Positions 6,594 to 54,382 of a stretch of 64,000 nucleotides of DNA are shown here, piece by piece. Under the pieces are notes generated by a model. It was given only the letters and a program-made list of their open reading frames with translations, searched no databases and was not told where the DNA came from. Origin of the DNA: Kribbella albertanoniae (lineage in GTDB: Bacteria > Actinomycetota > Actinomycetes > Propionibacteriales > Kribbellaceae); NCBI RefSeq assembly GCF_004348455.1, contig NZ_SMKA01000003.1:1-64000 (forward strand). The letters run 5' to 3'. The translations under genes were made by a program, and so were the position numbers. Within the stretch, counting starts at the first letter, position 1. Each line of letters begins with the position of its first letter.

Positions 6594-6596
6594 GAC

Positions 6597-7661
6597 ATGG
6601 CCCACCAGTGGCGAGGCGTGATCGAGGAATACCGCGACCGGCTTCCGGTCTCGACGGACACTCCGGTGGTCACGCTCGGCGAGGGCGGTACGCCGCTGGT
6701 GGCCGCGCAGTGGCTGAGCGAGCAGACCGCGTGTGAGGTCTGGCTGAAGGTCGAGGGGAACAACCCGACCGGCTCCTTCAAGGACCGCGGGATGACGGTG
6801 GCGATCTCGCTGGCCGCGCAGGCCGGTGACAAGGCAGTCGTCTGCGCCTCCACCGGGAACACGTCGGCGTCGGCCGCAGCGTACGCGGTCCGTGCCGGGA
6901 TGCTGCCACTCGTGCTGATCCCGGCCGGTCGGATCGCCAAGGGCAAGCTGGCGCAGGCCGTTGTGCACGGCGCCAGGCTGGTGTCGATCGACGGCAGCTT
7001 CGACGACTGCCTGCGGATCGTTCGTGAGCTGGGCAAGCACTACCCGGTCGCCCTGGTGAACTCGGTGAACCCGGTCCGTCTGGAAGGTCAGAAGACCGCG
7101 GCCTTCGAGGTCTGCGACGCGCTCGGTGACGCCCCGGATCTGCACCTGCTGCCGGTGGGCAACGCGGGCAACATCGCGGCCTACTGGAAGGGCTATCAGG
7201 AGTACGCGAAGGACAAGTTGGCCACGAAGAAGCCGCAGATGTGGGGTTTCCAGGCCGAGGGCGCGGCGCCGATCGTGCGCGGCGCGATCGTCGAGAAGCC
7301 GGACACCGTGGCGACCGCGATCCGGGTCGGTAACCCGGCGTCCTGGACACTGGCCGAGGCCGCCCGGGACGAGTCCGGCGGCCGGATCGAGATGCTCACC
7401 GACCAGCAGATCCTCAGCGCCCAGGGTGAGCTCGCGGCCAAAGAGGGCGTCTTCGTCGAGCCCGCGTCGGCGGCCGGGGTCGCCGGTCTGCTGCACGCGA
7501 AGGCGCAGGGCTGGCTGCCCGGCGGCTCGACCGTGGTGATCACGGTCACCGGCCACGGCCTGAAGGACATCGACACCGCCCTCGACCACGCCAAGGCGGA
7601 TGAGACTCCGGTCACGCCTGCGGACACCGACGCGGTCGCTCGCGTTGCCGGTCTCGTCTGA
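6597..7661 (+). CDS. thrC: Threonine synthase
   Basis: PLP enzyme converting O-phospho-L-homoserine to threonine. The PLP lysine is Lys62 in [20 protein letters not shown] motif and the glycine-rich phosphate loop V-G-N-A-G-N-I are visible. At 354 aa it belongs to the short threonine synthase class found in actinobacteria. It starts 3 nt after hom and its stop is 1 nt from the thrB ATG, so the hom-thrC-thrB block is co-transcribed. Confidence 0.96.
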
Positions 7662-7662
7662 C

Positions 7663-8565
7663 ATGGGCGAGGGTGGCCGCCCCTGCGACCAGGTGCGGGT
7701 GCGCGTCCCCGCGACGAGCGCGAACCTCGGCCCCGGGTTCGACGCCTTCGGGCTCGCGCTCACCCTGTACGACGAATTGGTCGTCACCCCGGGTGGTTCC
7801 GGGGTGACCGTCCACGTGTCGGGGTGCGGGGCGGACGACGTACCGCTGGACGAGTCGCACCTCGTGGTCCGGTCGATCCGGGCCGGTCTCGAGGCGCTCG
7901 GAGTGCAGGTCCCTGGTTTCACGCTGCGATGTGAGAACCGGATCCCGCACGGGCGTGGGCTCGGATCGTCGTCGGCCGCGATCGTCGGTGGCCTGGCCGC
8001 GGCGTACGGGTTGGCCGGTGAGCCGGTGGATCGGGAGCGATTGCTCCGGATGGCGAACGAACTCGAGGGTCATCCGGACAACGTGGCGGCTGCCGTGTAT
8101 GGCGGATTCACCGTTGCCTGGCTCGATGGGGACGATGGAAAGGCAGTCCGGCTGGACCCTTCGGACGGCCTTGGCGCGGTCGCGTACGTGCCGGCGAACC
8201 GCGTGCTGACGAAAGAAGCCCGCGGATTGCTGCCGAGCGCCGTACCGCATGGTGATGCAGCAGCGAATGCCGGTAAAGCAGCCCTGCTCGTCGTGGCGCT
8301 GACGCAGCGGCCGGATCTGCTGCTGACGGCGACCGAGGACCGGCTGCACCAGGAGTTCCGGGAGCCGGCGATGCCGGAGAGCCTGGCGCTCGTGCACAAG
8401 CTGCGGGGGAGTGGGCTGGCCGCGATCATCAGCGGGGCCGGGCCGACGGTTCTGGTGGTGGGCGGCCGTGAGCGGACCTGTCCGGCCCCGCCGGACGGCT
8501 GGGAGCGGCACGACCTGCGCGTCGATCCAGTCGGCGTACAGGTCTGGTCGATGGAGGCCGGGTGA
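7663..8565 (+). CDS. thrB: Homoserine kinase
   Basis: GHMP-family kinase that phosphorylates homoserine to O-phosphohomoserine, the substrate of ThrC. GHMP motif 1 (P-A-T-S-A-N-L-G-P-G-F-D) lies near residues 17-28. The ATP-binding motif 2 (G-R-G-L-G-S-S-S-A-A) is near residues 96-105. A late G-S-G-L-A-A-I-I-S-G-A-G-P-T segment is motif 3. The ATG at 7663 follows the thrC stop by 1 nt and gives 300 aa, the family norm; an in-frame ATG at 7600 lies inside thrC and is rejected. It closes the threonine operon. Confidence 0.95.
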   Translation: MGEGGRPCDQVRVRVPATSANLGPGFDAFGLALTLYDELVVTPGGSGVTVHVSGCGADDVPLDESHLVVRSIRAGLEALGVQVPGFTLRCENRIPHGRGLGSSSAAIVGGLAAAYGLAGEPVDRERLLRMANELEGHPDNVAAAVYGGFTVAWLDGDDGKAVRLDPSDGLGAVAYVPANRVLTKEARGLLPSAVPHGDAAANAGKAALLVVALTQRPDLLLTATEDRLHQEFREPAMPESLALVHKLRGSGLAAIISGAGPTVLVVGGRERTCPAPPDGWERHDLRVDPVGVQVWSMEAG

Positions 8566-8888
8566 GCCGGGGAATAGCGGGGAACTGACACGCGTTGAAC
8601 CCCCTGAGCCAGGCGTACGACCCCTCGGGGTGCTAGTCTCGACTCACCCGATCCCCTCCAGGTGATCGGTGAACTCTCGTCACGATCCGGGCTGTGCTCC
8701 CGGCACCCTGTGTTGTGTGGCGACCCCCCTGTGAACGTGATCTTGCGCCGCCTGCGCCGGGGATGTCCGGGGGGACTCAGATCGAGCGAGAGTCTCTTGA
8801 ACCCCACGTGCCACTTCGTTCGGCCGTGGGCGCTGAAACGGTCGATGGTGCTGTCGCACCTCGACGATCCGTGTGGGAAGGACCTCAC
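8566..8888 (+). promoter_or_regulatory. Long leader ahead of rho
   Basis: No gene is seen in these 323 bp. A compact hairpin ACCCC/GGGGT lies at 8620-8631, just before a -10-like TAGTCT (8634-8639); no good -35 was found. A second hairpin CCGATC/GATCGG is at 8648-8669. If transcription starts near 8646, the rho mRNA would have a leader of about 240 nt. Rho is autoregulated through its leader in several bacteria, so this is a reasonable control region, but that role here is inferred. Confidence 0.45.
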
Positions 8889-10973
8889 GTGACAGAAACT
8901 GTTGAAGCCTCCAGCTCCGACGCCGCGGCTGGTGCCGCGACGCGTCGCCGCAAGGCTGGTGGCGGCCTCGAGGGCATGCTGCTCCCCGAGCTCAAGCAGC
9001 TCGCCGGGACGCTCGGCATCAAGGGCACCGGCGCACTGCGCAAGGGCCAGCTGATCGAGGCGATCAAGGCCGCCCAGACGGGCGGCTCTTCCAGGGCGAA
9101 GGCGACCCAGCCCACCCTGGACGAAGGCGCTGACGCGCCCGCCAAGAAGCAGGCTCCGGCCAAGCGTGAGGGCGGCAGCCGCCGGACCCGCGCCGCCGCA
9201 GCGGCCACCGAGGCTCCCGCTGCCGAGGCCCCGAAGGTGGCCGAGCGGCAGCAGCCGGCTCCGGTCGTCGAGCGCGCTCCGGTCGTCCAGAGCGCTCCGA
9301 CCAGCGAGAGCGCTCCGGCCGTCGAGGCGCCCGCGGCGCAGAACGGTACGGCCGTCGAGGCCCGGACCGAGCAGACGGCCGACCGTGAGCAGAGCCGGGA
9401 CCGCAACCGCGAGAGCCAGGGCCGCGACCGGGACCGCAACCGCGACACTCAGCGGGACACCCAGAACCGCGACGGCAACCGCGAGAGCCAGGGCCGCGAC
9501 CGTGACCGGAACCAGGGTCGCGACGGCAGCCGGGACGGCAACCGCGAGCAGAGCCGGGACCAGAACCGCGACCAGGGTCGCGACAACCGGCAGCAGGACC
9601 GGCAGCAGGACCGGCAGCAGGAGCAGGGTGGCGAGGAGGGCGACAGCCGTCGCCGCCGTCGCCGGGGCCGCGACCGGGACCGCAACCGCGACGGCCAGCC
9701 GGTCACGTCCGGGCGTGAGTCGGGCCGCGACGCCGGCCGCGAGTCGGGTCGTGATTCCGGCCGCAACCGTGGCCGCGGCGAGCGGTTCGACCCGGAGCCG
9801 ACGATCAGCGAGGACGACGTGCTCGTCCCGGCCGCCGGCATCCTCGACGTACTGGACAACTACGCGTTCGTCCGGACCAGCGGCTACCTGCCCGGCCCGA
9901 ACGACGTGTACGTCGCCCTCTCCATGGTCAAGCGCTACGGCCTCCGCAAGGGTGACGCGATCACCGGTGCGGTGAAGCAGCCGCAGGAGGGTGAGCGCAA
10001 GGAGAAGTTCAACCCGCTGGTCCGGATCGACACCGTGAACGGGTCGGACCCGGAGATCGCCAAGCAGCGGCAGGACTTCAACAAGCTGACCCCGCTGTAC
10101 GCGACCGAGCGGCTCCGCCTCGAGACCGAGCCGGGCATCCTGACCACCCGGATCGTCGACATCGTCAGCCCGATCGGCAAGGGCCAGCGCGGCCTGATCG
10201 TCTCACCGCCGAAGGCCGGTAAGACGATGGTGCTGCAGGCGCTGGCGAACGCGATCACCACGAACAACCCCGAAGTGCACCTGATGGTGGTGCTGGTGGA
10301 CGAGCGGCCCGAAGAGGTCACCGACATGCAGCGCACGGTCAAGGGTGAGGTCATCGCCTCCACCTTCGACCGTCCGGCCGACGACCACACCACGGTCGCC
10401 GAGCTGGCCATCGAGCGCGCCAAGCGGCTGGTCGAGCTCGGCCACGACGTCGTCGTACTGCTCGACTCGATCACCCGGCTCGGCCGCGCGTACAACATCG
10501 CGGCCCCGGCCAGCGGCCGGATCCTGTCCGGTGGTGTCGACTCCTCGGCGCTCTACCCGCCGAAGCGGTTCTTCGGTGCGGCCCGCAACATCGAGGACGG
10601 CGGCTCGCTGACCATCCTCGCCACCGCGCTGATCGAGACCGGCTCGAAGATGGACGAGGTGATCTTCGAGGAGTTCAAGGGCACCGGCAACATGGAGCTC
10701 CGGCTGCGCCGCGAGTTCGCCGACCGGCGGATCTTCCCGGCCATCGACGTCGTCGCCTCCGGCACCCGCCGCGAGGAGCTGCTGATGAGCAAGGACGAGA
10801 CCCAGGTCGTCTGGAAGCTGCGCCGGGTGCTGTCCGCCCTCGACGGCCAGGCCGCCCTGGAGCTGCTGATCGGCAAGCTCAAGGAGAGCAAGTCGAATAT
10901 CGAGTTCCTGCTCCAGGTCAACAAGACCACCCCGTCGGCCGGCAGCACCCACAGCACCACGAACGGCGACTGA
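8889..10973 (+). CDS. rho: Transcription termination factor Rho, with long Arg/Asp-rich insert
   Basis: Hexameric RNA helicase that ends transcription of untranslated RNA. Order: an N-terminal Rho-N helical domain (about residues 28-65, with LPELKQLAGTLGI); an Ala/Pro/Lys-rich linker; a very low-complexity Arg/Asp/Asn/Gln region (about residues 162-300); the primary RNA-binding cold-shock domain; and the RecA-like ATPase with Walker A S-P-P-K-A-G-K-T. At 694 aa it is far longer than the 419-aa E. coli protein, but inserts of this type are known in actinobacterial Rho. The start is GTG 8889, with GGAAGGA at 8876-8882; an upstream in-frame ATG at 8694 would add an unlikely leader. Confidence 0.95.
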   Translation: MTETVEASSSDAAAGAATRRRKAGGGLEGMLLPELKQLAGTLGIKGTGALRKGQLIEAIKAAQTGGSSRAKATQPTLDEGADAPAKKQAPAKREGGSRRTRAAAAATEAPAAEAPKVAERQQPAPVVERAPVVQSAPTSESAPAVEAPAAQNGTAVEARTEQTADREQSRDRNRESQGRDRDRNRDTQRDTQNRDGNRESQGRDRDRNQGRDGSRDGNREQSRDQNRDQGRDNRQQDRQQDRQQEQGGEEGDSRRRRRRGRDRDRNRDGQPVTSGRESGRDAGRESGRDSGRNRGRGERFDPEPTISEDDVLVPAAGILDVLDNYAFVRTSGYLPGPNDVYVALSMVKRYGLRKGDAITGAVKQPQEGERKEKFNPLVRIDTVNGSDPEIAKQRQDFNKLTPLYATERLRLETEPGILTTRIVDIVSPIGKGQRGLIVSPPKAGKTMVLQALANAITTNNPEVHLMVVLVDERPEEVTDMQRTVKGEVIASTFDRPADDHTTVAELAIERAKRLVELGHDVVVLLDSITRLGRAYNIAAPASGRILSGGVDSSALYPPKRFFGAARNIEDGGSLTILATALIETGSKMDEVIFEEFKGTGNMELRLRREFADRRIFPAIDVVASGTRREELLMSKDETQVVWKLRRVLSALDGQAALELLIGKLKESKSNIEFLLQVNKTTPSAGSTHSTTNGD

Positions 10974-10986
10974 ACCACCCCTGATT

Positions 10987-11018
10987 ACCGGTTTGCCACC
11001 GCAAAGTGGCAAACTGGT
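10987..11018 (+). terminator. Stem-loop between rho and rpmE
   Basis: A 13-bp stem (ACCGGTTTGCCAC paired with GTGGCAAACTGGT, one G-U pair) closes a 6-nt CGCAAA loop, 13 nt after the rho stop. There is no U tract after it, so it may be a U-less actinobacterial terminator or a processing/attenuation structure in a rho-rpmE transcript. Confidence 0.6.
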
Positions 11019-11083
11019 ACGTCGGTTCCGGTTCACGTTCACGCCGTGGACGACCCGGAGCACCTGATTCCTAGGAGATTGTC

Positions 11084-11293
11084 TTGAAGAGCGACATCCA
11101 CCCGACCTACGTGGACACGAAGGTGACCTGTTCCTGCGGCGCGCAGTTCGAGACGCGCTCCACTGCGGAGAGCGGCTCCATCCACTCCGACGTGTGCTCG
11201 CAGTGCCACCCGTTCTACACGGGCAAGCAGAAGATCCTCGACACCGGCGGCCGGGTCGCGCGCTTCGAGAAGCGCTACGCAGCAAAGAAGTAG
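11084..11293 (+). CDS. rpmE: Ribosomal protein L31, zinc-binding type
   Basis: Large-subunit ribosomal protein of 69 aa. It keeps the cysteines of the zinc-binding (C+) form: C-S-C-G near residues 16-19 and C-S-Q-C near residues 37-40. Zinc-dependent L31 is the form normally replaced by a cysteine-free paralogue under zinc starvation; no such paralogue is in this window. The start is TTG 11084, with AGGAG at 11073-11077 at good spacing; no ATG or GTG lies nearby in frame. Confidence 0.95.
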
Positions 11294-11308
11294 ATACGAA
11301 ACCTCTGG

Positions 11309-11347
11309 GCGAGGTGTGCCTGCCGATAGCGCAGGCCACCTCGCTTT
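11309..11347 (+). terminator. Terminator after rpmE
   Basis: GCGAGGTG-t-GCCTGC (11309-11323) pairs with GCAGGC-CACCTCGC (11331-11344) around a 7-nt loop, giving 14 pairs with one bulge. It is followed by TTTCGCG and lies 16 nt after the rpmE stop. This is a good intrinsic terminator apart from the short U run. Confidence 0.75.
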
Positions 11348-11445
11348 CGCGTGTTGTGCGGCTTCGCCGCGAGCGGGGGCTTCGCCACCCGCACCCCCTT
11401 TGCGCGGGGTGAATGCTTGTTCGTATCCGAGAGGAGGAGTGCGGC

Positions 11446-12522
11446 ATGTTCGAGGCGGTTCAGACGCTCAAGGCGGAGTACGCCGAGCTGGAACGGCAGA
11501 TGTCCGACCCGGAGCTGCACTCCGACCAGGCGAATGCGCGGCGCGTCGGCAAGCGGTATGCCGGGCTCGCGCCCGTCGTACGGACGTATGACGAGTGGCT
11601 GCAGACGGCGGATGACATCGAGGCCGCGAAGGAGCTGGCGGCTGAGGACCCGGCGTTCGCCGAGGAGGCCGTGAAGCTGGCCCATCGGCGCGACGAGTTG
11701 GCCGAGAAGCTGCAGATGCTGCTGGTGCCGCGCGACCCGAGTGACGACAAGGATGCGATCCTCGAGATCAAGGCCGGTGAGGGTGGCGACGAGTCCGCGC
11801 TGTTCGCCGGGGACCTGCTGAAGATGTACCTGAAGTACGCCGAGTCGCAGAACTGGAAGACCGAGATCATCGACGCCGCCGACTCCGATCTGGGCGGGTA
11901 CAAGTCGATCACGGTCGCGGTCAAGGCGAAAGGCACGCCGGAGCCGGGCGAGGCGCCGTACGCGAAGCTGAAGTTCGAAGGCGGCGTGCACCGGGTCCAG
12001 CGGGTGCCGGTGACCGAGTCGCAGGGCCGGATCCACACGTCGGCGGCCGGTGTCCTGGTGCTGCCGGAGGCCGAGGACGTCGACGTCGAGATCGACCTGA
12101 ACGACCTGCGGATCGATGTGTTCCGCTCGTCCGGTCCCGGTGGGCAGAGCGTGAACACGACCGACTCCGCCGTCCGGATCACCCACCTACCGACCGGCAT
12201 CGTGGTCTCGATGCAGAACGAGAAGTCCCAGCTGCAGAACCGCGAGCAGGCGATGCGCGTGCTGCGGTCCCGGCTGCTGGCGGCTGCGCAGGAAGCGGCC
12301 GACCAGGAGGCGTCCGACGCCCGCCGGTCGCAGATCCGGACCGTCGACCGCTCCGAGCGCGTCCGCACCTACAACTTCCCGGAGAACCGGTTCTCCGACC
12401 ACCGGGTCGGCTACAAGGCGCACAACCTGGACCAGGTGCTCGGCGGCGACCTCGCCCCGGTCATCCAGGCACTCACCGAAGCCGATCTGACCGCACGGCT
12501 CGAGGCCGTCGACTCCAAGTGA
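11446..12522 (+). CDS. prfA: Peptide chain release factor 1
   Basis: Recognises UAA/UAG stop codons and triggers peptide release. The universal GGQ tripeptide is at about residues 233-235 within [10 protein letters not shown]. The N-terminal helical domain and the C-terminal R-T-Y-N-F-P-E-N-R-x-x-D-H-R motif are typical of class I release factors. The protein has 358 aa from ATG 11446, which has GAGGAGGAG just before it; an in-frame ATG at 11413 is rejected. Its stop overlaps the prmC GTG. PrmC methylates the glutamine of the GGQ motif, so the two coupled genes are enzyme and substrate. Confidence 0.96.
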
Positions 12523-45339: not shown

Positions 45340-45896
45340 TCACGAGCCGCCATCAAGGCAAACCCGAGCAGATTGGTCCCCCGCCATCGGGCCGGGGTCG
45401 AGGCTGCCTCGTCTTTTGCCGCCAGGCCGATGCCCCAGACACGATCGACCGGGCTGGCCTCGACCAGGACCCGTGATCCGGTGCCGACCAGGTAGTCGCG
45501 CAGCTCCGGATGGGCGTTGAACTTGTGGATCGAACCATCCACGACCAGCCCCATCCGGTGCTCCCGCCAGGTCGCCTCGTCGAAGTTGCGTACGGCGCGA
45601 CCGGCAGCCTTCGCAGCGCCGGCATTGCGGGCGGCTCGCACTGCCTCCAGAGCAACGTCGTCGCCGAACAGCCGGGCCTTTCCAGCCATCATCCAGTGCT
45701 CGGCTGTCGGGTAGCGAACGCCGTCGACGACGAACGGCGCAGGAAACCACTGACTGAAACAGCTCGCGTCGACAACCCCGGGCCGGCGCGGGCGATGACC
45801 CCAGAAGCTCACGTAGCGATACCGGCGGCCGCGTGCGATCCCGTCGAGCAGGTCAGCGACAGACCGCGGAGCATCAATCGAACCGGCCGGCTTCAT
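45294..45896 (-). CDS. NADAR-family protein (YbiA-like N-glycosidase)
   Basis: 200 aa with the NADAR motifs: an early F-W-G-H, the segment F-S-Q-W-F-P-A-P-F, then Y-P-T-A-E-H-W-M-M-A-G-K-A and a late W-x-G-x-N-L-L-G-F-A-L-M. YbiA-type NADAR enzymes hydrolyse the N-glycosidic bond of early riboflavin pathway intermediates, which are reactive; other NADAR members process ADP-ribose marks, including in phage defence. Without partners here the housekeeping role is more likely. It diverges from the flavoprotein gene at 46012. Confidence 0.88.
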   Translation of the reverse strand: MKPAGSIDAPRSVADLLDGIARGRRYRYVSFWGHRPRRPGVVDASCFSQWFPAPFVVDGVRYPTAEHWMMAGKARLFGDDVALEAVRAARNAGAAKAAGRAVRNFDEATWREHRMGLVVDGSIHKFNAHPELRDYLVGTGSRVLVEASPVDRVWGIGLAAKDEAASTPARWRGTNLLGFALMAARDYLVGQGTSTSTSAS

Positions 45897-45910
45897 GTCG
45901 GCAGTATCGA

Positions 45911-45934
45911 GGTTCCGAGGAGCCGGAGGGAACC
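45911..45934. promoter_or_regulatory. Inverted repeat in the divergent NADAR/flavoprotein spacer
   Basis: GGTTCC (45911-45916) and GGAACC (45929-45934) form a 6-bp inverted repeat with a 12-nt spacer, 78 bp before the CTG start at 46012. It could be an operator for either divergent gene; the evidence is thin. Confidence 0.3.
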
Positions 45935-46011
45935 CATTTTGCGGCGGCGCTGACCCCGGTGGGTGATGAGGTTGGGGTGGATCGGTTGCTGGGGAGCTGA
46001 GGAGGAAGCCA

Positions 46012-47442
46012 CTGACTGGGGTTGCCGTGATTGGTGGCGGGCCGGCGGCGGTGGGGCTTCTGGGGAGGATGCTGGCGCGGGCCGACGAGTTTCGGCGTGC
46101 GCCGCGGGTTGTCGTCTATGAGCCGGACAATCTTGGGCACGGGGTCGCGTTCGGGGCGGATCTCGAGTCGGCGTTGATCAATCTGCCGGCTGGGCGGATG
46201 TCGATGGACCCCGGTGATCCGGATCAGTTCGCGCGGTGGCTGGACGCGGCGGGGGATGCGTATGTGCCGCGGCAGGTGTTCGGCGAGTACCTGGTGGACG
46301 AGTTCTGGCGCGCGGTGGGGCAGGCGCGCGCGTTGGGCTGGACTGTGGACGTGGTGCCGGAGACGGTCGCCGCGCTGGGGAAGGGCAGTGCGAACGAACT
46401 GCTGGTGCGGACCCCGGCCGGTGTGCGGTCGTTCGGGCAGGTGGTGCTCGGGGTCGGGTCCGGTACGACGGCGGATCCGTACCGGCTGAGCGGGGCGTCG
46501 GGTTATGTCGTCGACCCGTACCCGTTGGCCGCGACGCTGCCGGGTATCGCGCCACGGTCGCACGTGCTGGTGATCGGGACCGGGCTGACGGCGATCGATG
46601 TCGTGCTGGGGCTGCTGCATCTCGGTCACGACGGACGGATCACCCTTGCGTCGCGGACCGGGATCCTCCCAGGTCCCCGGCCGCAGATCATGCCGCTGGA
46701 CCCGAAGCATCTGACGATCGACGCTGTCCGCCGCTTCGAATCGCTCGGCCTGGGGGACGTCTGGGAGCTGCTGAAGCTCGAGCTGGCGTCGGCCGGCTTC
46801 GATGCGGACACGGAAATCTCATGGCTGCTGTCGAGTGCGTCGGCCACGGAACGACTGCGCTACCAGCTCGATCGGCTGGACGCGGCGCCGATCCAGTCGA
46901 TCTTCGAGAACCTCGAGACACCGGTGCCGCCGATGATCCGGGCCGCGCTCAGCGCGGACGAGATGCTGAAGGTTGCCTTCGACTACAAGCCCTACCTGAA
47001 GAGCATCCAGTGCCCGATGCCGCCGGTGAGCGCCAGGAAGTTGCTGGCGGTAATGGACAGCGGACAGCTCGTCGTGGCACCGGGAATCACCGCGCTGAGG
47101 CACCGCAACGGCCGGTTCGAGGCGGTCGCGCGCGAATCCGTGCCCGCTGCGGAGGTCGTCATCGACGCAACCAGGCTGAGCCCACGGCGGACGAAGGGCC
47201 GGGCGCGCGGCCTGCTGGACTCACTGTCCGCCGAGCGGCTCGCGAGCTGGAACTCGTTCGACGGACTGATCGTCGACCCGCGCACGGGCCGGGTGGTCGC
47301 GGCGGCGCCGTACCGGCTCTTCGCGTACGGCGAGATCACCGCAGGCGAGCTGTACTACGCCAGCAGTCTGCCGGCCGTCGTCCGCGGAGCGAACGTGGTG
47401 GCGGCGGAGCTTGTTCGCCATGACAACGAGGTGGGTTCATGA
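46012..47442 (+). CDS. FAD/NAD(P)-binding protein (NAD_binding_9 type), probable CTG start
   Basis: 476 aa. Its N-terminal Rossmann strand and loop read T-G-V-A-V-I-G-G-G-P-A-A (residues 2-13). Then come Y-E-P-D-N-L-G-H-G-V-A-F and N-L-P-A-G-R-M-S-M-D-P-G-D-P, typical of the YdhS/NAD_binding_9 group, and a second nucleotide loop V-I-G-T-G-L-T-A-I-D (about 187-196). It is thus likely an NAD(P)H-using flavin oxidoreductase or hydroxylase. CTG 46012 lies 6 nt after GGAGG (46001-46005). The only usual start, GTG 46027, would remove the first beta strand and is 21 nt from the RBS. Overlaps the next gene by 4 nt. Confidence 0.8.
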   Translation: MTGVAVIGGGPAAVGLLGRMLARADEFRRAPRVVVYEPDNLGHGVAFGADLESALINLPAGRMSMDPGDPDQFARWLDAAGDAYVPRQVFGEYLVDEFWRAVGQARALGWTVDVVPETVAALGKGSANELLVRTPAGVRSFGQVVLGVGSGTTADPYRLSGASGYVVDPYPLAATLPGIAPRSHVLVIGTGLTAIDVVLGLLHLGHDGRITLASRTGILPGPRPQIMPLDPKHLTIDAVRRFESLGLGDVWELLKLELASAGFDADTEISWLLSSASATERLRYQLDRLDAAPIQSIFENLETPVPPMIRAALSADEMLKVAFDYKPYLKSIQCPMPPVSARKLLAVMDSGQLVVAPGITALRHRNGRFEAVARESVPAAEVVIDATRLSPRRTKGRARGLLDSLSAERLASWNSFDGLIVDPRTGRVVAAAPYRLFAYGEITAGELYYASSLPAVVRGANVVAAELVRHDNEVGS

Positions 47443-48230
47443 GAGTCGTGCTGTCCGAATGTCTGCCCGACTATGTCAGCTACACCTTCCCCTATCACGT
47501 CTGGGGCTTTCTCGAGGAGGGCGAGACGCCGGGTACGGCACTGGCACTCGGCTTCCTGCCGCTGACCTTCGACCTGTCGCGCTTCTACCTGTCCCGGAGC
47601 ATCCGCGTCGAGCTGAGCGATTTCGGCCCGAACAAGCGGATCCGCTATGCCAGGCGCCAGTGCGCCCACATCAGCAGCCAGTTCCTCGAGCGCGCGGACT
47701 TCGAGTTCACCGCGGCTTGGCGTGATCTGGCGACCGCGTACTTCGCGACCCGGGCCGAGGCGGTCGAGTATCGGCAGCGGCGGTTCCTCGAGATGCTGGA
47801 CTCACCCTTCACGACGCACGTGTTGCTGTGGACCGACGACACCACCGGAGCACCGGTCGGACTTGCACCGCTCTACCTCGAGGAGCAGGTGGGGGAGTAC
47901 GGCATCTCGATCTATGCACCGGAGTACACCGCGGTGAACATCGGCAACCACATGCTGGCCGGGGTCCTGCAGAAGCTCCAAGAGCTCGGCTGTACCCATG
48001 GCTACGTGGGGACCTGCTACTCCGAGGAGGCGCTCTACAAGACGCGGGTGCCGGGCATGCAGTTCTTCAACGGCTTCCGCTGGTCGGACGACCGGGCCGA
48101 GCTGCATCACTTCCTCGACCGTCAGCAGCCCGTCGCGCAGGAGCACATCCTGAGCACCGAGGCGTATGCGAAGGCTTTCGGTGGCATCGGGGAGCCGCCC
48201 GCGTTGTGGCGGCTACAGGCTCCGGGCTGA
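47439..48230 (+). CDS. ATE/Bpt-like aminoacyl-tRNA transferase homologue
   Basis: 263 aa. It aligns by eye along most of the bacterial leucyl/arginyl-tRNA-protein transferase (Bpt/ATE) fold: G-F near residues 38-39; R-S-I-R-V-E-L-S-D-F-G-P-N-K-R-I-R-Y (53-70), matching the ATE C-x-P-I-R-I-x-V-x-x-F-x-x-S-K-S-Q-K-R segment; and the late Y-V-G-T-C-Y-S-E-E-A-L-Y-K-T-R (189-203), matching the Y-L-G-Y-x-I ... M-x-Y-K-x-x-F motif. The N-terminal C-x-x-C cluster of true ATE proteins is missing. It could move an amino acid from tRNA to a small-molecule or protein acceptor. ATGA overlap with the flavoprotein gene. Confidence 0.65.
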   Translation: MRVVLSECLPDYVSYTFPYHVWGFLEEGETPGTALALGFLPLTFDLSRFYLSRSIRVELSDFGPNKRIRYARRQCAHISSQFLERADFEFTAAWRDLATAYFATRAEAVEYRQRRFLEMLDSPFTTHVLLWTDDTTGAPVGLAPLYLEEQVGEYGISIYAPEYTAVNIGNHMLAGVLQKLQELGCTHGYVGTCYSEEALYKTRVPGMQFFNGFRWSDDRAELHHFLDRQQPVAQEHILSTEAYAKAFGGIGEPPALWRLQAPG

Positions 48231-48989
48231 GACGACCGGCTGGTGATAGCCCGACTCGTGCGGTAGCAACCAGGCGACATCCTTGAAGCCGGCGCCCTTG
48301 AGCAGCCCCAGTACAGTCTCCTTCTCCAAGGCGCGCAGCGTGGTCCGGCCGGTCGACACCTCCCAGCCGGTGCTCGATTCCTTGAGCACGAAGAAGTCGG
48401 TCGTGTACGCCGGAGCGTCGTCATGCCATTGCCAGGTCTGGAAGTAGATCCGCTTCTGGCCACCCAGCTCCATCACGCGCGGCACGGAACCCTCGGGCTT
48501 CTCCTTCAGAAGAGGCCCGTAGTCACGCAGGCTGATCAGCAGCAACCCGTCCGGCTCGAGCTTCGCCTTCATCGCGGCGAAGGCCTGCGCGAGGTCATCG
48601 TCGGTCTGCAGATGCGCCAGCGAGTTGTCGAACGAGAGCACCACGTCGAACGTCCCGTCGACCTGTTCGTCGAGGTGCCGGAAGTCCGCCGTACCGAAGG
48701 TCAGCTCGGCGCCCATCGCCGCGGCCGAGTCGGCGGCGCGGGCCACGGCGCGGGAGCTGAGGTCGGTCGCGTGGACGCGGTAGCCCTCGAGGGCGAGCCC
48801 GATCGCCTGCGTGCCGATCCCGCAGGAGCAGTCCAGGACGGAGAACGCGCCCGATCCTTTGAACGCGGTGATCAGGTCACGCACCTCACCGCCCTGCCGG
48901 CGGGCGGAGGACTGCCAGTCCGGGTAGATGAGGTGATAGTCCTCGGCGAAGCCGTCGTAGAACTCCTGCGGGTTGTTGTCGCCGGTCAT
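48213..48989 (-). CDS. SAM-dependent methyltransferase, glycine N-methyltransferase-like
   Basis: 258 aa class I methyltransferase. The N-terminal F-Y-D-G-F-A-E-D-Y-H-L-I-Y-P-D-W (residues 10-25) resembles the substrate lid of glycine/sarcosine N-methyltransferases. The SAM loop is V-L-D-C-S-C-G-I-G-T (51-60), and D-V-V-L-S-F-D-N-S-L-A-H follows. An amino-group acceptor is therefore the better guess. ATG 48989 has GGAGG upstream and shares one base with the stop of the ATP-grasp gene. Its 3' end overlaps the ATE-like gene by 18 bp from the other strand. Confidence 0.85.
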   Translation of the reverse strand: MTGDNNPQEFYDGFAEDYHLIYPDWQSSARRQGGEVRDLITAFKGSGAFSVLDCSCGIGTQAIGLALEGYRVHATDLSSRAVARAADSAAAMGAELTFGTADFRHLDEQVDGTFDVVLSFDNSLAHLQTDDDLAQAFAAMKAKLEPDGLLLISLRDYGPLLKEKPEGSVPRVMELGGQKRIYFQTWQWHDDAPAYTTDFFVLKESSTGWEVSTGRTTLRALEKETVLGLLKGAGFKDVAWLLPHESGYHQPVVSARSL

Positions 48990-50284
48990 CAGCTACCTCC
49001 AGAAAGAAACGCGCATCCTCTGCTGTAGGCGCCGGGGATGCCGATCACGCCGTTCTCGATCGCGGGGCGGCCGCGGAGCGTGGCGCCGCCGTACTGGTCG
49101 TCCAGGACGAAGACGCCCCAGACGACATGCCAGTCAACGAGCCGGCCGGACTCCGTGAACAGCTCTTCGTCCGGGACGACCCGCTGCTGCACCAGGTAGG
49201 TCTGCAGGGCGGGGGACTCCAAGTGGGCTTGCCATTCCTGGTCGCTGACGTTCGTCCCGATGACCACGCCGGCACCTTGGAAACCGTCGGCGGGCTTCAG
49301 GATCAGTTCCTGCCGGCGACTACGGCATTCGTCGATCAGCAAGCGGCGGTCCCGACCGATCATCCGCGTCCAGGGAACCCGCCGTTCGATCAATGCCCGC
49401 TCGTCGGGCGTCAACGCCGACCACACGTGCGGCTCTCGCAGCAGACCGAGAGTTGCCTTGCGGGCCGAGACATCGGTGTCGAGCGGCGGGAAGAGAACCA
49501 AGGCACCGCTGTACTGCGCTCTGGTCAGAGCCGCCATCGTGGTGTCGCCGGGCACCACGTTCGTGGCATCGAAGTACCGGAAGATGACGTCGACCCGGGT
49601 GTCGCCGTCGAGGTAGATGCGGCCGTTGCGCTCGGAGAGATCCCGGAGTTCGCCCAAGGCGATCGTGAGACCGCGGCTGCGCAGGTTGCGGCACATCCGC
49701 TCGGTGGCTCCGCCTGGCTTGTCCCGTGCGCCGGACTCCTCGATCAATGCGACGCTGGGCGGTCCTCCGTCCGGCGCGGTGCCCGCGGCGATGAGTTGGT
49801 CGGCCACCAGTTGCAGGGTGTCGGCGTAGGAGAGCTCATGGTCGTGAGCGAAGGCCTCGAATCCCGGTTGCCCGAGGAGGGCTTCGTGCAGCAGCGAGGA
49901 ATCGATGCTGCCGAGGCCGTTGCCGCGGTTGAGCTCGATGACCTTGGCCTGGCCACCAGCGCTGAAGACGTCGGCTCGTAGATGGGTGCGGGACGCTCCG
50001 ACAGCTCCGGCGAGGATGACGTCGATGAGGTCGTCGGCGACGCCCTGCGCCTCCAGATAGCCGCGGCTGCCGCCGAAGCAACGCTCGGCGATATCGTCGA
50101 GCAACCAGTGCAGCCGGCTGAGGTCGGTGCAGAGCTCAGCCATCGCTCGCGCGTCGGCGAAGAGCGGGCGTTGCAGGGCTTGCAGCGGCCAACTCACGAA
50201 CGGTTCGGTCTGCTCGACGGTCCGCATGCTGTTCTGCAGCGATGGGTCTCTCAGATACGCCCGCGTCGGCTCGGGTGCGATCAC
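48989..50284 (-). CDS. ATP-grasp ligase-like protein (circularly permuted type, uncertain)
   Basis: 431 aa from GTG 50284. Residues 114-133 (K-V-I-E-L-N-R-G-N-G-L-G-S-I-D-S-S-L) resemble the acidic/asparagine metal site of glutathionylspermidine synthase-like, circularly permuted ATP-grasp proteins. Residues 327-343 (L-I-L-K-P-A-D-G-F-Q-G-A-G-V-V-I-G) are the nucleotide-binding lysine and glycine loop, and Y-L-V-Q-Q-R-V-V (363-370) the hinge. Such enzymes join a carboxylate to an amine with ATP. It overlaps the upstream methyltransferase by 4 nt (GTGA) and the downstream one by 1 nt, so all three are coupled. An upstream in-frame ATG at 50551 lies inside the neighbouring gene and is rejected. 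Confidence 0.7.
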   Translation of the reverse strand: MIAPEPTRAYLRDPSLQNSMRTVEQTEPFVSWPLQALQRPLFADARAMAELCTDLSRLHWLLDDIAERCFGGSRGYLEAQGVADDLIDVILAGAVGASRTHLRADVFSAGGQAKVIELNRGNGLGSIDSSLLHEALLGQPGFEAFAHDHELSYADTLQLVADQLIAAGTAPDGGPPSVALIEESGARDKPGGATERMCRNLRSRGLTIALGELRDLSERNGRIYLDGDTRVDVIFRYFDATNVVPGDTTMAALTRAQYSGALVLFPPLDTDVSARKATLGLLREPHVWSALTPDERALIERRVPWTRMIGRDRRLLIDECRSRRQELILKPADGFQGAGVVIGTNVSDQEWQAHLESPALQTYLVQQRVVPDEELFTESGRLVDWHVVWGVFVLDDQYGGATLRGRPAIENGVIGIPGAYSRGCAFLSGGS

Positions 50285-50862
50285 AGGCTGCGTTTGGTGG
50301 CCAGGACCAGCCCGGACGACCAGTTCAGTACGGTGACGGCCAGCGACCGGTCCTCGACGATCTCGCGGCGGAAGGTCTCGACCAGCGCCTGCTGATCGGG
50401 TGCCCAGTCCGGATGCGGCAGCAGATGGTCGGCGACGTAGATTCCGCCGGGCGCCAGCCACTCCAGCAATTGCGCCCGCGCGATGAACTTGCCGCGGTAG
50501 GTGTCGACGAACACCAGGTCGAACGGCGGCCCGTCGTACCGGTCGAGCCACTCGCCGATGTCGGTCACGACCAGCTCGACCCGGGAGTCGTCGCCGACCG
50601 CCTTCCGCGCGAGCTCGGTGGTCTCCGGATTGCGGTCGAGACTGACGAGCCGGCTGCCGGCGCTCATCCCGTCCAGGAGCCAGGCGGTGCCGACACCGGC
50701 GCCGGTGCCCAGCTCAAGCAGGTGACCGTCCGGTTTCGTGGCGGCCAGTGAGCGGAGCAGGGCGCCGGTGCGCTCATCGGAGTCCTCGCCGAAACCCAGG
50801 TGCTGCGAAAACCCTCGCGCGGCTCGTGCCCGGGCAGGGATCTGCGTTGGTTCGTCCGACAC
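50281..50862 (-). CDS. SAM-dependent methyltransferase, O-methyltransferase-like
   Basis: 193 aa. The SAM loop E-L-G-T-G-A-G-V-G is at residues 50-58, with V-S-L-D-R-N (acidic end of strand 2) near 75-80 and D-L-V-F-V-D-T-Y-R-G-K downstream. The compact form is that of catechol/caffeoyl-type O-methyltransferases. GTG 50862 is preceded by GAGGGA at tight spacing. First of the three overlapping minus-strand genes, 36 bp after the helicase on the same strand. Confidence 0.8.
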   Translation of the reverse strand: MSDEPTQIPARARAARGFSQHLGFGEDSDERTGALLRSLAATKPDGHLLELGTGAGVGTAWLLDGMSAGSRLVSLDRNPETTELARKAVGDDSRVELVVTDIGEWLDRYDGPPFDLVFVDTYRGKFIARAQLLEWLAPGGIYVADHLLPHPDWAPDQQALVETFRREIVEDRSLAVTVLNWSSGLVLATKRSL

Positions 50863-50898
50863 TCCCTCATGATGGTCGATCGGAGGGGCAGCCGCCGC

Positions 50899-53406
50899 TT
50901 ACAGGGGTTTGAAGGAGACCATTTCGAGGACTAGTTCGCCGGTGTCGTCGGAGGCGGCCAGGTCTACGGTGGCGGTGATGCGCCAGTCGTGGTTGCCTTC
51001 GGGGTCGTCGATGATTTGCTGGACTTCCCAGTAGCCGGGGTGTTCTTCGACCAGGAAGAGGGCAGGGCCGCGGGCGGCGGGGCCGGTGTTGAGGGTGTCG
51101 TGTTCGGCGTAGTAGGTGGTGCCGGCTTCGGCCCAGCGGCCGGCGTCCCAGCCGGAGTCGGTGTCGAGTTGGCCCAGCTCGGCCCAGCGGTGGCGGGCGA
51201 CCAACTCGACGCGGCGGAAGACGGCGTTGCGGACGAGGACGCGGAAGGCCCGGGTGTTGAGGGTGATGCGGCGCGGGCCGACCGGGGTGACCTCGACCTC
51301 TTCGGTGACCGGGTTGGTCAGCTCTTCCCACTCGTCGAGGAGGCTGGAGTCGGTCTGGCGGACGACCTCGCCGAGCCACTCGATCAGGTCGGTGAGGTCC
51401 TCGTTCGCCTTGTCCGGCGGGACGGTCTGCCGCAGTGCCTTGTAGGCGTCGCTCAGGTAGCGCAGCACGATGCCTTCGGAGCGCGCGAGACCGTAGTACT
51501 GGATGTACTCGCCGAACGTCATCGCCCGCTCGAACATGTCCCGGACCACAGACTTCGGGGACAGGCCGGCCTCGGCGATCCACGGGTGGGTCTGCCGGTA
51601 GATCTCCAACGTTGCCTCGAGCAACTCTTCGAGCGGCTTCGGCCAGCTGATCTCCTCGAGCAGTTCCATCCGCTCGTCGTACTCGATGCCGTCGGCCTTC
51701 ATCCCTTGGACGGCCTCGCCCTTGGCGTGGTGCAACTGCGCCATCAGGATCGCGCGTGGGTCCTCGAGCGTCGCTTCGACCACCGACACCACGTCCAACG
51801 CGTACAGCGGGTCCTCGGGGTCGAGCAGGTCGAGCGCGGCCAGTGCGAAGGTCGACAGCGGCTGGTTGAGCGAGAAGTCCTTCTGCAGATCAACGGTCAG
51901 CCGCAGCGACCGGCCGAACTCGTCCGGCTCCGGCAGCCGCTCGACCACGCCCGCGGTCACCAGCGTGCGGTAGATCTGGATCGCACGGCGGATCAGATGC
52001 CGCTGCTGCTTGGCGTCCTCGTGGTTGTCCTGCAGTAGATGTCGCATGCTCGCGAACGCGTCGCCGTCGCGGGCGATCACGTTCAGCAGCATGGCGTGGT
52101 TGACCCGCATCCGCGACTGCAGCGGTTCGGGTTCGGCGGCGACGAGCCGGTCGAAGGTGTCCTCACCCCAGGTGACGAAACCCTCCGGCGGCTTCTTGCG
52201 CTGGACCCGGCGCTGCTTCTTCGGATCGTCACCGGCCTTCGCAAGCAGCCGCACGTTCTCCACGACGTGATCCGGAGCCTGTACGACGACTGTGCCGGAA
52301 GTGTCGTACCCGGCCCGCCCCGCCCGGCCAGCGATCTGGTGGAACTCGCGCGCCTTGAGGATCCGCTGCCGGCGCCCGTCGTACTTGCTGAGCGCGGTCA
52401 GCAGCACCGTCCGGATCGGCACGTTGATGCCGACGCCGAGGGTGTCGGTACCGCAGATGACCTTCAGCAGCCCCGCCTGCGCGAGCTGCTCGACCAGCCG
52501 CCGGTACTTCGGAAGCATGCCGGCGTGGTGGACGCCGATCCCGTGCATGATCAGGCGTTGCAGTGTCTTGCCGAAGCCGGAGCCGAACCGGAAATGCCCG
52601 ATCAGCTCCTTGATCTTGTCCTTCTCCTCCTTCGTGCAGACGTTGATGCTGGTCAGCGCCTGAGCGCGTTCCAGGGCCGACGCCTGGGTGAAGTGGACGA
52701 CATAGACCGGGGCCTGATGGGTGACCAGCAACTCGGCGAGCGTCTCGTGCAGCGGCGAGGTGACGTACTTGTAGATCAGCGGAACCGGGCGCTCGCCCGA
52801 CGAGACGATCGCGGTCGGCTGGCCGGTCCGCCGGGACAGATCGATCTTGAACCGCTCGACATCGCCGAGGGTCGCGGACATCAGAATGAACTGCGCGCGA
52901 GGCAGCTCGAGCAACGGCACCTGCCACGCCCAGCCGCGATCCGGCTCGGAGTAGAAGTGGAACTCGTCCATCACCACCTGACCGACATCGGCCGCCGCGC
53001 CCTCACGCAACGCGACGTTCGCCAGGACCTCCGCCGTACAGCAGATGATCGGCGCGCCCGCGTTCACCGAGGCGTCGCCGGTCAGCATCCCGACCTTGTC
53101 CGCGCCGAACACGTCGCAGAGCGCGAAGAACTTCTCCGACACCAGCGCCTTGATCGGCGCGGTGTAGAACGTCCGCTTCCCGTGCGCCAGCGCGGCGAAG
53201 TGCGAGCCGGTCGCCACCAGGCTCTTCCCGGACCCGGTCGGCGTGGACAGGATCACGTTCGACCCGGTCATCACCTCGATCAACGCCTCTTCCTGCGCCG
53301 GGTACAACGAGATCCCCTGCTCCGCCACCCAGCGCGCGAACGCGTCGTACAGCTGGTCAGGCTCGGTCGTCCCCGGCAACATCTCGGTCAGCGTCATCGG
53401 GGCCAT
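50899..53406 (-). CDS. Ski2-like DEAD/DEAH-box RNA helicase with DUF3516
   Basis: 835 aa. Walker A is T-P-T-G-S-G-K-S (residues 55-62), the DExH box is D-E-F-H (147-150), motif III is S-A-T, and motif VI is Q-I-A-G-R-A-G-R-A-G. The C-terminal half is the DUF3516 region found in actinobacterial helicases of this size. It probably remodels structured RNA. ATG 53406 or ATG 53397 may start it. It lies upstream of the three-gene minus-strand operon, but its wide conservation suggests a housekeeping role. Confidence 0.9.
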   Translation of the reverse strand: MAPMTLTEMLPGTTEPDQLYDAFARWVAEQGISLYPAQEEALIEVMTGSNVILSTPTGSGKSLVATGSHFAALAHGKRTFYTAPIKALVSEKFFALCDVFGADKVGMLTGDASVNAGAPIICCTAEVLANVALREGAAADVGQVVMDEFHFYSEPDRGWAWQVPLLELPRAQFILMSATLGDVERFKIDLSRRTGQPTAIVSSGERPVPLIYKYVTSPLHETLAELLVTHQAPVYVVHFTQASALERAQALTSINVCTKEEKDKIKELIGHFRFGSGFGKTLQRLIMHGIGVHHAGMLPKYRRLVEQLAQAGLLKVICGTDTLGVGINVPIRTVLLTALSKYDGRRQRILKAREFHQIAGRAGRAGYDTSGTVVVQAPDHVVENVRLLAKAGDDPKKQRRVQRKKPPEGFVTWGEDTFDRLVAAEPEPLQSRMRVNHAMLLNVIARDGDAFASMRHLLQDNHEDAKQQRHLIRRAIQIYRTLVTAGVVERLPEPDEFGRSLRLTVDLQKDFSLNQPLSTFALAALDLLDPEDPLYALDVVSVVEATLEDPRAILMAQLHHAKGEAVQGMKADGIEYDERMELLEEISWPKPLEELLEATLEIYRQTHPWIAEAGLSPKSVVRDMFERAMTFGEYIQYYGLARSEGIVLRYLSDAYKALRQTVPPDKANEDLTDLIEWLGEVVRQTDSSLLDEWEELTNPVTEEVEVTPVGPRRITLNTRAFRVLVRNAVFRRVELVARHRWAELGQLDTDSGWDAGRWAEAGTTYYAEHDTLNTGPAARGPALFLVEEHPGYWEVQQIIDDPEGNHDWRITATVDLAASDDTGELVLEMVSFKPL

Positions 53407-53482
53407 TGTCCCTCACGCGCCGAATCGTGTTGCACACAGCTGCGGCCCGGCCTCACCATGTGACGCAGGGGATGGGGGTTCC

Positions 53483-54382
53483 ATGGCAGCGACCGTCGAT
53501 GCGAAGACAGTGATCCAGTCCGTCGACCCGAAGCGTCTGGCCGGCTCCGCGCTCGTCGGCACGCTGACCCTGGAAGCGATTCTGCTGTTCTCGGCAGGTG
53601 ACAACGCTTTCACCGCCCGGCAGCTACCCAGCCACGTGCTGGCGGTGATCGTGGGCACGCTGGGCGGCTGGATCTTCGAGCTGTTCCGGCAACTGCTGTC
53701 GGCGACGTCCAACTCGCTGACAGAGCTCGGTCGGCTCAACGCGAGCCTGGGCGCGCTGACCGAGCGCATCGACTACCAGGAGACCGCGCTCGGCATGCTG
53801 ACCAGCTGCCCGCGGCACAACGACGCACTCTCGAAGCTCATCAGGTCCTCGATGAGTGACAACTTCCGGAACATCCCGTACGTCGGCCCGGCCGCCTACC
53901 TCGGTTATCTGCGGAGCGCCGTCGAGCACGCGGACGGGTACGAAGGTGTCCAGCGCAACACCCTGCGGTGGTACCAGGAGGGCGCCGCGACGGCGTACCT
54001 GCAGGAGCTGAAGAGCAAGCGGATGAAGTTCAAGACCCGCCTGTTCGTCATCGACGACGACGAGGCCGAGCAGATGGAACGCGACCTCGCCGACCAGGAC
54101 CTGCTGCGGTTCTACTGGGAGCACACCGGGGACGTCGCCAGCTACTGGATCACCGTCTCGGACTACCGGCGGAACTACCCCGCACTCATCATCCCGCGCG
54201 ACTTCGCGCTGTACGACCGCACCCTGCTGATCTCGTACGACGAGGGCCGGCAGATCCTGTCGTTCGACGTACTGGATCCCGGGCAGTCGCCGCAGGGCCA
54301 GATCTTCCGGACCCTGAACGAACTCACCCGGCACCAGGACGCGGCCTTCCGCCCGGTCCCACGCTCAGCGGGTGTCGAGTAG
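53483..54382 (+). CDS. Membrane protein of unknown function, 299 aa
   Basis: Two hydrophobic segments (about residues 20-40 and 52-70) are followed by a helical stretch (S-L-T-E-L-G-R-L-N-A-S-L-G-A-L) and a soluble domain. In that domain a run of Y, W and charged residues (R-W-Y-Q-E-G-A and W-E-H-T-G-D-V-A-S-Y-W) may form a receptor or phospholipase-like fold; I recognise no family. ATG 53483 is selected because the frame upstream is not coding. Its 3' end overlaps the convergent methylase gene by 59 bp. Confidence 0.7.
   Translation: MAATVDAKTVIQSVDPKRLAGSALVGTLTLEAILLFSAGDNAFTARQLPSHVLAVIVGTLGGWIFELFRQLLSATSNSLTELGRLNASLGALTERIDYQETALGMLTSCPRHNDALSKLIRSSMSDNFRNIPYVGPAAYLGYLRSAVEHADGYEGVQRNTLRWYQEGAATAYLQELKSKRMKFKTRLFVIDDDEAEQMERDLADQDLLRFYWEHTGDVASYWITVSDYRRNYPALIIPRDFALYDRTLLISYDEGRQILSFDVLDPGQSPQGQIFRTLNELTRHQDAAFRPVPRSAGVE

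Follow-up and report, generated by a model that had tools for sequence, protein, structure and literature searches.

The ATE and Bpt enzymes, arginyl- and leucyl-tRNA-protein transferases, normally tag proteins with amino acids that are drawn from tRNA. A handful of folds is known for enzymes that use tRNA to channel amino acids into natural products. In the available text of a review, these enzymes are sorted into synthetase-like, GNAT/Fem-like, CDPS and PEARL classes, and 'arginyl', 'ATE1' and 'Bpt' are nowhere mentioned in it (PMC12945691, 2026). The same text describes a Fem-type double GNAT architecture for five modelled enzymes, VlmA, DhpH-C, DhpK, PacB and Orf11, and the accessible part of another source names tRNA-dependent GNAT enzymes for argolaphos, dehydrophos and fosfazinomycin (PMC11867202). 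Here, we analysed a 64,000-nt stretch of the Kribbella albertanoniae genome (the window, to which all unlabelled coordinates refer), which carries a block of five genes encoding a flavoprotein, an ATE/Bpt-like protein of 263 residues, an ATP-grasp ligase and two methyltransferases (MT1 and MT2). We think it probable, if only just, that the block is a compact, horizontally acquired biosynthetic cassette with an ATE/Bpt-like, tRNA-dependent step toward a small amino-acid-derived metabolite.

The 263-residue protein is remotely homologous to Bpt/ATE enzymes and ATE1, has 15 positions that are invariant with seven Bpt-type sequences and a basic stretch that aligns at the tRNA helix of ATE1, but it has no Cys cluster, scores far under the family cut-offs and is encoded in a metabolic cassette. 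With VlmA, DhpH-C, DhpK, PacB, Orf11 and the enzymes of argolaphos and fosfazinomycin it would share the use of a charged tRNA to acylate a small molecule. Unlike the double GNATs of the VlmA/PacB type, it has only 263 residues, and none of the Fem, MprF or LPG models matches it. The valanimycin pathway (with VlmH/VlmR) pairs a flavin oxidation with a tRNA-dependent aminoacylation, as the block would. However, the block has no dedicated seryl-tRNA synthetase, it has an ATP-grasp enzyme and two methyltransferases in addition, and its flavoprotein presumably belongs to another family than the valanimycin flavin enzyme.

The available part of PMC2922099 treats VlmA and VlmL, assigns the argininyl and leucyl transferases to one GNAT-ligase group with VlmA, and describes a paralogue of methionyl-tRNA synthetase (MetRS) that is accompanied by a cupin, a lysine N6-monooxygenase and, in some cases, ATP-grasp enzymes. 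In six loci (L044, L047, L158, L159, L162 and L164) a relative of the window ligase is found near a MetRS-like gene, the L044 cluster also having a lysine/ornithine N-monooxygenase, and this association agrees with the systems described in that part of PMC2922099. In contrast to them, the block has no synthetase paralogue, cupin or PF13434 enzyme. Fosfazinomycin was dropped as a template because, in the accessible part of the source, formation of its argininylhydrazine is proposed, not shown, for an asparagine-synthetase homologue, which is not ATE-like (PMC6133997). In the open-licence literature, no paper was found on arginyltransferases and natural products, nor on fosfazinomycin FzmI and tRNA. 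Since neither the classes of the review nor these searches hold one, an enzyme of the ATE/Bpt lineage that serves in a cassette for small molecules would count as a new variant within the literature searched.

The 263-residue transferase-like protein

The protein matched two NCBIfam models only, both for arginyltransferases, with E values of 0.0029 and 0.17. A profile was built from seven Bpt-type sequences of plasmid records, two of which are annotated as arginyltransferase and two of which (L135 and L140) are close relatives of each other. The window protein scored 15.5 bits against this profile, whereas the next of 661 proteins, a background that counts the window protein itself, reached 2.4 bits and the best of 2000 shuffles 4.1 bits. 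When a six-Bpt profile was aligned with hhalign, the window protein gave a P value of 0.0005 over 151 columns. Among the controls, the one ordinary GNAT that was tried reached 0.013 over 57 columns, a Fem-like protein 0.7 and MT1 0.66. A profile of the Bpts together with the window protein matched six distinct ATE1 sequences in the PDB (E 5.7e-19 to 1.3e-23) before noise set in at E 0.27; with the window protein alone, the PDB search returned auxilin J-domain noise only.

The homology spans residues 54 to 219 approximately. Fifteen positions are invariant across the protein and the seven Bpts, including R56, F62, P64, G169, Y189, G191, Y200, K201 and W215. The last six of these are retained from the C-terminal block G...Y-L-G-Y...K-M-x-Y-K...W, in which the second Y is changed to T, the W after it to C and K-M to E-A. 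The segment PNKRIRYARR, with a charge of +5 in 10 residues, is the most basic stretch of this net-acidic protein (23 K/R, 32 D/E). In a sequence alignment, PNKRIRYARRQ coincides with the region of the tRNA-gripping helix of yeast ATE1, which is described in the accessible part of PMC10115844.

A single GNAT-like region was matched in the protein by Pfam. Neither ATE_N nor ATE_C was listed among the Pfam matches, and the Pfam and NCBIfam scans, run to E 10 with filters that discard most matches beyond about 0.1, listed no Fem, MprF or LPG model. The pyrophosphate of acetyl-CoA is bound in GNATs by the motif [RQ]xxGx[GA]. An earlier note on this DNA, written from the sequence alone, had named a plain GNAT fold with an acetyl-CoA site among the findings that would overturn its reading of the cluster; of such a site this motif was looked for, and it is absent throughout the protein. 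Judged by its sequence, the protein is a remote homologue of the bacterial arginyl/leucyl-tRNA-protein transferases, related to but not itself an ATE or Bpt, and is more likely an ATE/Bpt-derived aminoacyltransferase than an acetyltransferase. The assignment of the earlier note thus holds as remote homology, with profile and hhalign scores above those of the controls, and fails as family membership because of the cut-offs and the Cys cluster.

Searches with the protein sequence found it in 1 of 97 genomes of relatives and in 1 of 394 genomes of the class, each time its own genome. In 296 class genomes it was the sole long match to NF002343, and the seven other places, in six genomes, were fragments of 31-58 positions. 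No relative was found in plasmids at E 1e-5 or E 10, where six records at E 0.2 or worse were scattered fragments. Two pattern scans of a collection of 84,980 genomes, the second with two patterns only, gave no relative either; such scans reach fairly close relatives only and are not exhaustive. Viral contigs yielded no homologue, and no Bpt sequences were found in them either. Profile A2, applied to 239 and 160 genomes of two families, gave one 59-position fragment with an internal stop, which we do not believe, and the empty result in the 160-genome family is no evidence on its own. Metagenomes could contain distant relatives.

Insertion and neighbourhoods of the block

The host assembly comprises 9.73 Mb in 593 contigs, and the block is inserted between a NADAR gene and a gene for a DUF3516 helicase. 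The helicase gene is present in 37 of 37 congeneric genomes, host included, and its locus was compared in 20 of the 36 others (L114-L133), with gene calls outside the window made by codon use trained on four window genes, not by annotation. A MurA-type gene (PF00275), a trans-2-enoyl-CoA reductase-type gene (PF12241) and the helicase gene follow in the same order in all 20 loci, and none of the five block genes occurs in any of these syntenic stretches. L115 is an empty site, with 18 bp from the NADAR start codon to the helicase stop codon. When it was aligned with the flanks of the window, the left match stopped at 45911 and the right match restarted at about 50898, indicating a single insertion. 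No target-site repeat was seen at the block edges, where the longest direct repeat has 7 bp and the longest inverted repeat 8 bp, and no integrase or transposase gene lies within the block. The five genes behave as one transferred unit that was horizontally inserted. This bears out the earlier note, which had treated them as one cluster, since the whole block is absent from the syntenic site and one insertion accounts for the alignment.

The cargo between the enoyl-reductase and helicase genes (window 45340-50898; L114-L133) varies among the congeners and consists of NADAR, transporter-like or regulator-like genes, or nothing. Because it differs from genome to genome, this interval is an accessory-gene hot spot. 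The short frame at 45917-46000 sits just before the flavoprotein ribosome-binding site, and its translation matches the proteins called in this analysis at chance level only. It is possibly the tail of an upstream gene that was lost on insertion of the block, or a chance frame.

The same five-gene set was seen in no other genome or neighbourhood searched, metagenomes being outside the search, and so far it appears to be unique to this genome. The conserved co-occurrence in other actinobacteria that the earlier note had looked to for support was not found: no transferase homologue was detected, and relatives of flavoprotein and ligase are never adjacent in the fetched neighbourhoods. Some genomes hold both relatives far apart (G133, G181, G036 and others); those of G036 share a contig, with positions near 216 kb and 641 kb. 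As these relatives stand at paralogue distance (26-39% identity), their non-adjacency is weak evidence either way.

Ligase relatives are present in 25 of 393 other class genomes (E 1e-5) and in 26 of 37 other congeners (E 1e-10), at 26-35% identity and some of them partial. We inspected 29 ligase neighbourhoods, namely 18 stretches that came from genomes of the class or from the host itself, three of seven plasmid records and eight congeners; a fourth plasmid record, L035, was seen by annotation only and stands outside the 29. An aminoacyl-tRNA-type gene is found in 10 of them. Six are MetRS-like, either by PF09334 (L044, L047, L159) or by strong similarity to L159 (L158, L162, L164), three resemble asparaginyl- or lysyl-tRNA synthetase (AsnRS/LysRS; L160 by PF00152, L161 and L163 by similarity), and one is Fem/LPG-synthase-like (L032). 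In L162 and L164, the ligase was overlooked by the gene caller and placed by search coordinates. A second ATP-grasp gene occurs in 16 of the 29. Not one of 33 control loci (440 genes) matched any of the same tRNA-type and ATP-grasp seeds, the controls being drawn from flavoprotein and helicase surroundings and the seeds chosen after looking. The association is therefore suggestive, as the seeds are post hoc, the loci are not independent and the controls come from other surroundings; it suggests that this ligase family often neighbours synthetase-like or Fem-like genes. No flavoprotein or transferase homologue occurs in the 29 neighbourhoods. The one weak MT1 match is in L053, from the host's own genome (contig C149; 467-1795 and 14825-15205), where a second, distant ATP-grasp relative lies in a different gene run that has a weakly MT1-like gene at its far end.

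Two arrangements recur among the congeners. L158 (4444-7643), L159 (6460-9702), L162 and L164 carry a trio in which an ATP-grasp relative is joined by a MetRS-like catalytic protein that stands free (PF09334) and by a 120-residue protein without Pfam match, which is perhaps the cupin that appears in the available part of PMC2922099. L160 (6337-11909), L161 and L163 combine an ATP-grasp relative and an AsnRS/LysRS-like protein with a DDAH-like protein, a protein of 111 residues and two glutamate-mutase-like subunit types, B12-binding and MutE. This set looks like a pathway that may use rearranged glutamate.

Candidate pathway and competing explanations

In the favoured reading of the block as a tRNA-using cassette, the flavoprotein, with FAD and NAD(P)H, would oxidise an amino acid or an amine. 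Next, the ATE/Bpt-like enzyme would draw an amino acid from the host's charged tRNA and acylate this oxidised small molecule rather than the N-terminus of a protein; the charged tRNA would be host-supplied, since the block has no synthetase. The ATP-grasp enzyme would form a second amide bond, MT1 would cap an amine and MT2 a hydroxyl or carboxyl, which would give a small methylated dipeptide- or hydroxylamine-like metabolite. As to its chemistry, including amino acid, acceptor and oxidation, the product would most likely be a small aminoacylated, oxidised and methylated metabolite. The block has no gene for an exporter, a regulator or resistance, so such functions, if needed, would be supplied by the host.

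A bolder version, which we regard as distinctly unlikely, is that an enzyme of the N-degron (ATE/Bpt) lineage was recruited to secondary metabolism and aminoacylates a hydroxylamine or amine made by the flavoprotein via ordinary charged tRNA, after which the ligase and methyltransferases build a new N-O- or N-N-type peptide metabolite. If true, the natural-product enzymes that depend on aminoacyl-tRNA would gain a further class next to Fem/VlmA, CDPS, PEARL and the synthetase-like enzymes. An ATE/Bpt-rooted member would show an N-degron enzyme losing its metal site and switching its acceptor, and could be used to search for small clusters without a synthase megaenzyme. The ATP-grasp family near synthetase-like genes would be a second handle for such searches.

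Several observations weigh against the favoured reading. The 263-residue protein lies far under both arginyltransferase cut-offs (NF002343, 16.9 bits against 267; NF002346, 11.3 against 170), and its hhalign probability with the six-Bpt profile is only 32%. The Cys cluster is absent: the protein has Cys only at 8, 75, 185 and 193, and the C..C.AC columns of the seven Bpts are L51 or gaps. According to the accessible part of PMC10115844, the N-terminal Cys cluster helps tRNA binding in yeast ATE1. A single-sequence AlphaFold model reached a pLDDT (predicted local distance difference test score) of 33 and was discarded, and no homologue was found with which its family or the co-occurrence could be compared. 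On the ligase side, the tRNA-linked congener loci are orthologous and not independent (L158, L159, L162 and L164; L160, L161 and L163). In a ligase tree of 28 rows, with L054, L162 and L164 left out, the window ligase, on a long branch, groups with nine relatives, one of which (L032) has a tRNA-type partner, and the MetRS-/AsxRS-linked ligases of the tree fall in a sister clade. Generic GNAT models of Pfam score the protein about as well as the ATE models do (PF13480, E 0.0042, 17.7 bits against a cut-off of 22; PF00583, E 0.0092, 16.7 against 20.7); the curated cut-offs of both families are missed. These GNAT scores speak for a divergent but ordinary GNAT N-acyltransferase that uses acyl-CoA, in a tRNA-free cassette whose acylation, oxidation, ligation and methylation steps would produce or detoxify a small molecule. 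GNAT domains do occur in such clusters, as with the GNAT-TauD protein beside a ligase relative in L033. Yet the pyrophosphate motif is missing, and the long Bpt alignment, which includes the Y-x-G...Y-K block, stands against the short one of the plain GNAT. We consider this explanation fairly unlikely, and on the sequence evidence a tRNA step is the better of the two readings.

That both NCBIfam matches are arginyltransferases, and that a search of the host genome with the arginyltransferase model brings up no second gene, would fit a true aminoacyltransferase of protein N-ends that does N-degron tagging and lies beside a metabolic operon by chance. The lost Cys cluster, the wide gap to the family cut-offs, the 4-nt overlap with the flavoprotein gene and the common arrival of the block make this very improbable. 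The two convergent operons might also be functionally unrelated and co-captured, or the block might be the decaying remnant of a larger cluster. In favour of this are flavoprotein and ligase relatives that are adjacent in none of the fetched neighbourhoods, the 27-codon frame with its stop before the ribosome-binding site, a possible lost-gene tail, the missing exporter and regulator, and a site that is a cargo hot spot. Against it stand five open frames detected by codon use, tight gene overlaps and the one insertion that explains all, and we hold it to be quite improbable.

Gene order, families and further observations

Direct reading of the sequence confirmed the five genes in two converging units, with their overlaps (Table 1). 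On the plus strand, the ATG of the transferase-like gene at 47439 overlaps the flavoprotein end at 47442 by 4 nt (ATGA). On the minus strand, the best ATP-grasp start, GTG 50284, lies in the MT2 end with a 4-nt overlap (GTGA), and the ATP-grasp stop and the MT1 ATG at 48989 have one base in common (TGATG). The units overlap by 18 bp at 48213-48230. All five frames are open and were detected by codon use. The family names that had been given to the flavoprotein, the ligase and both methyltransferases were upheld by Pfam, NCBIfam and PDB matches.

Table 1. Features of the inserted block (window positions)
Feature	Position	Strand	Edge, start or residues	Basis
Inserted block, about 4.99 kb, all five genes inside	45912..50897		right edge +/-1-2 bp	flank alignment with L115
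Open frame ending EEPEGTHFAAALTPVGDEVGVDRLLGS-stop, 27 codons	45917..46000	+		translation
FAD/NAD(P)-binding flavoprotein	46012..47442	+	CTG 46012 or GTG 46027	PF13454
ATE/Bpt-like aminoacyl-tRNA transferase homologue, 263 aa	47439..48230	+		NCBIfam matches under cut-off, profile test
Basic stretch PNKRIRYARRQ	47628..47660	+	residues P64-Q74	charge scan, alignments
S-adenosylmethionine (SAM) methyltransferase MT1, glycine/sarcosine N-methyltransferase-like, 258 aa	48213..48989	-		NF051855, PDB 5h02
Circularly permuted ATP-grasp ligase, 431 aa	48989..50284	-	GTG 50284	PF04174
SAM methyltransferase MT2, COMT/O-methyltransferase type, 193 aa	50281..50862	-		PF13578, PDB O-methyltransferases

The ligase reached the score of the circularly permuted ATP-grasp family PF04174 with 25.3 bits, just above the cut-off of 23.1, and stayed under that of PF14403 (27.7 bits, cut-off 32). 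R102, D104, E116, N118, K275, K329 and R367 are invariant in 17 aligned sequences, window included, and E116, N118, K275 and K329 may have catalytic roles. A PDB search with the ligase gave mostly immunoglobulin noise; in addition, it listed Cp1B, a ligase, at E 0.086 and, at E 0.81, a putative glutathionylspermidine synthase.

The flavoprotein reached the score of PF13454 (NAD_binding_9; E 3.6e-25, 89.2 bits, cut-off 21.8) and has dinucleotide-binding motifs at residues 8 and 189. Two start codons come into question for it: CTG 46012, the choice of the earlier note, is separated from AGGAGGA by about 5 nt and restores the Rossmann strand T-G-V-A-V-I-G-G-G, and the GTG is the alternative. Relatives at 33-39% identity occur in 10 of 295 other class genomes (E 1e-30); at E 1e-10, relatives were found in 5 of 37 other congeners, three of these being nearly full-length. 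Some relatives lie within evident biosynthetic clusters. In L166 (cluster at 4672-12049), the relative lies between a Trp halogenase gene and genes for an AMP-binding/carrier protein, a thioesterase, a flavin reductase and a P450, as assigned by Pfam; a second cluster resembles it in gene order (L167, 1733-8969), and in L036 the relative is found with annotated shikimate-pathway and hydroxylase genes. Most others among those listed have neighbours that show no evident biosynthetic cluster. No relatives of other block genes occur in the 13 flavoprotein stretches (L104-L113, L165-L167) or in L036. The PDB search with the flavoprotein gave no match at E 0.1, and no relevant paper on PF13454 was found in the open-licence literature.

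MT1 is related to glycine/sarcosine N-methyltransferase but is not a member of the family (NF051855, E 1.9e-22, 80.1 bits against a cut-off of 350), and it matched PDB 5h02 over residues 4-162 (E 5.3e-16). MT2 scored 43.7 bits with PF13578 (cut-off 26.3), and PDB O-methyltransferases were matched, best 8c9v (E 2.7e-11); it is nearest to the COMT type. Elsewhere in the window, a frame of 325 residues at 53405-54379 has no Pfam match and an NCBIfam membrane-protein match below the cut-off.

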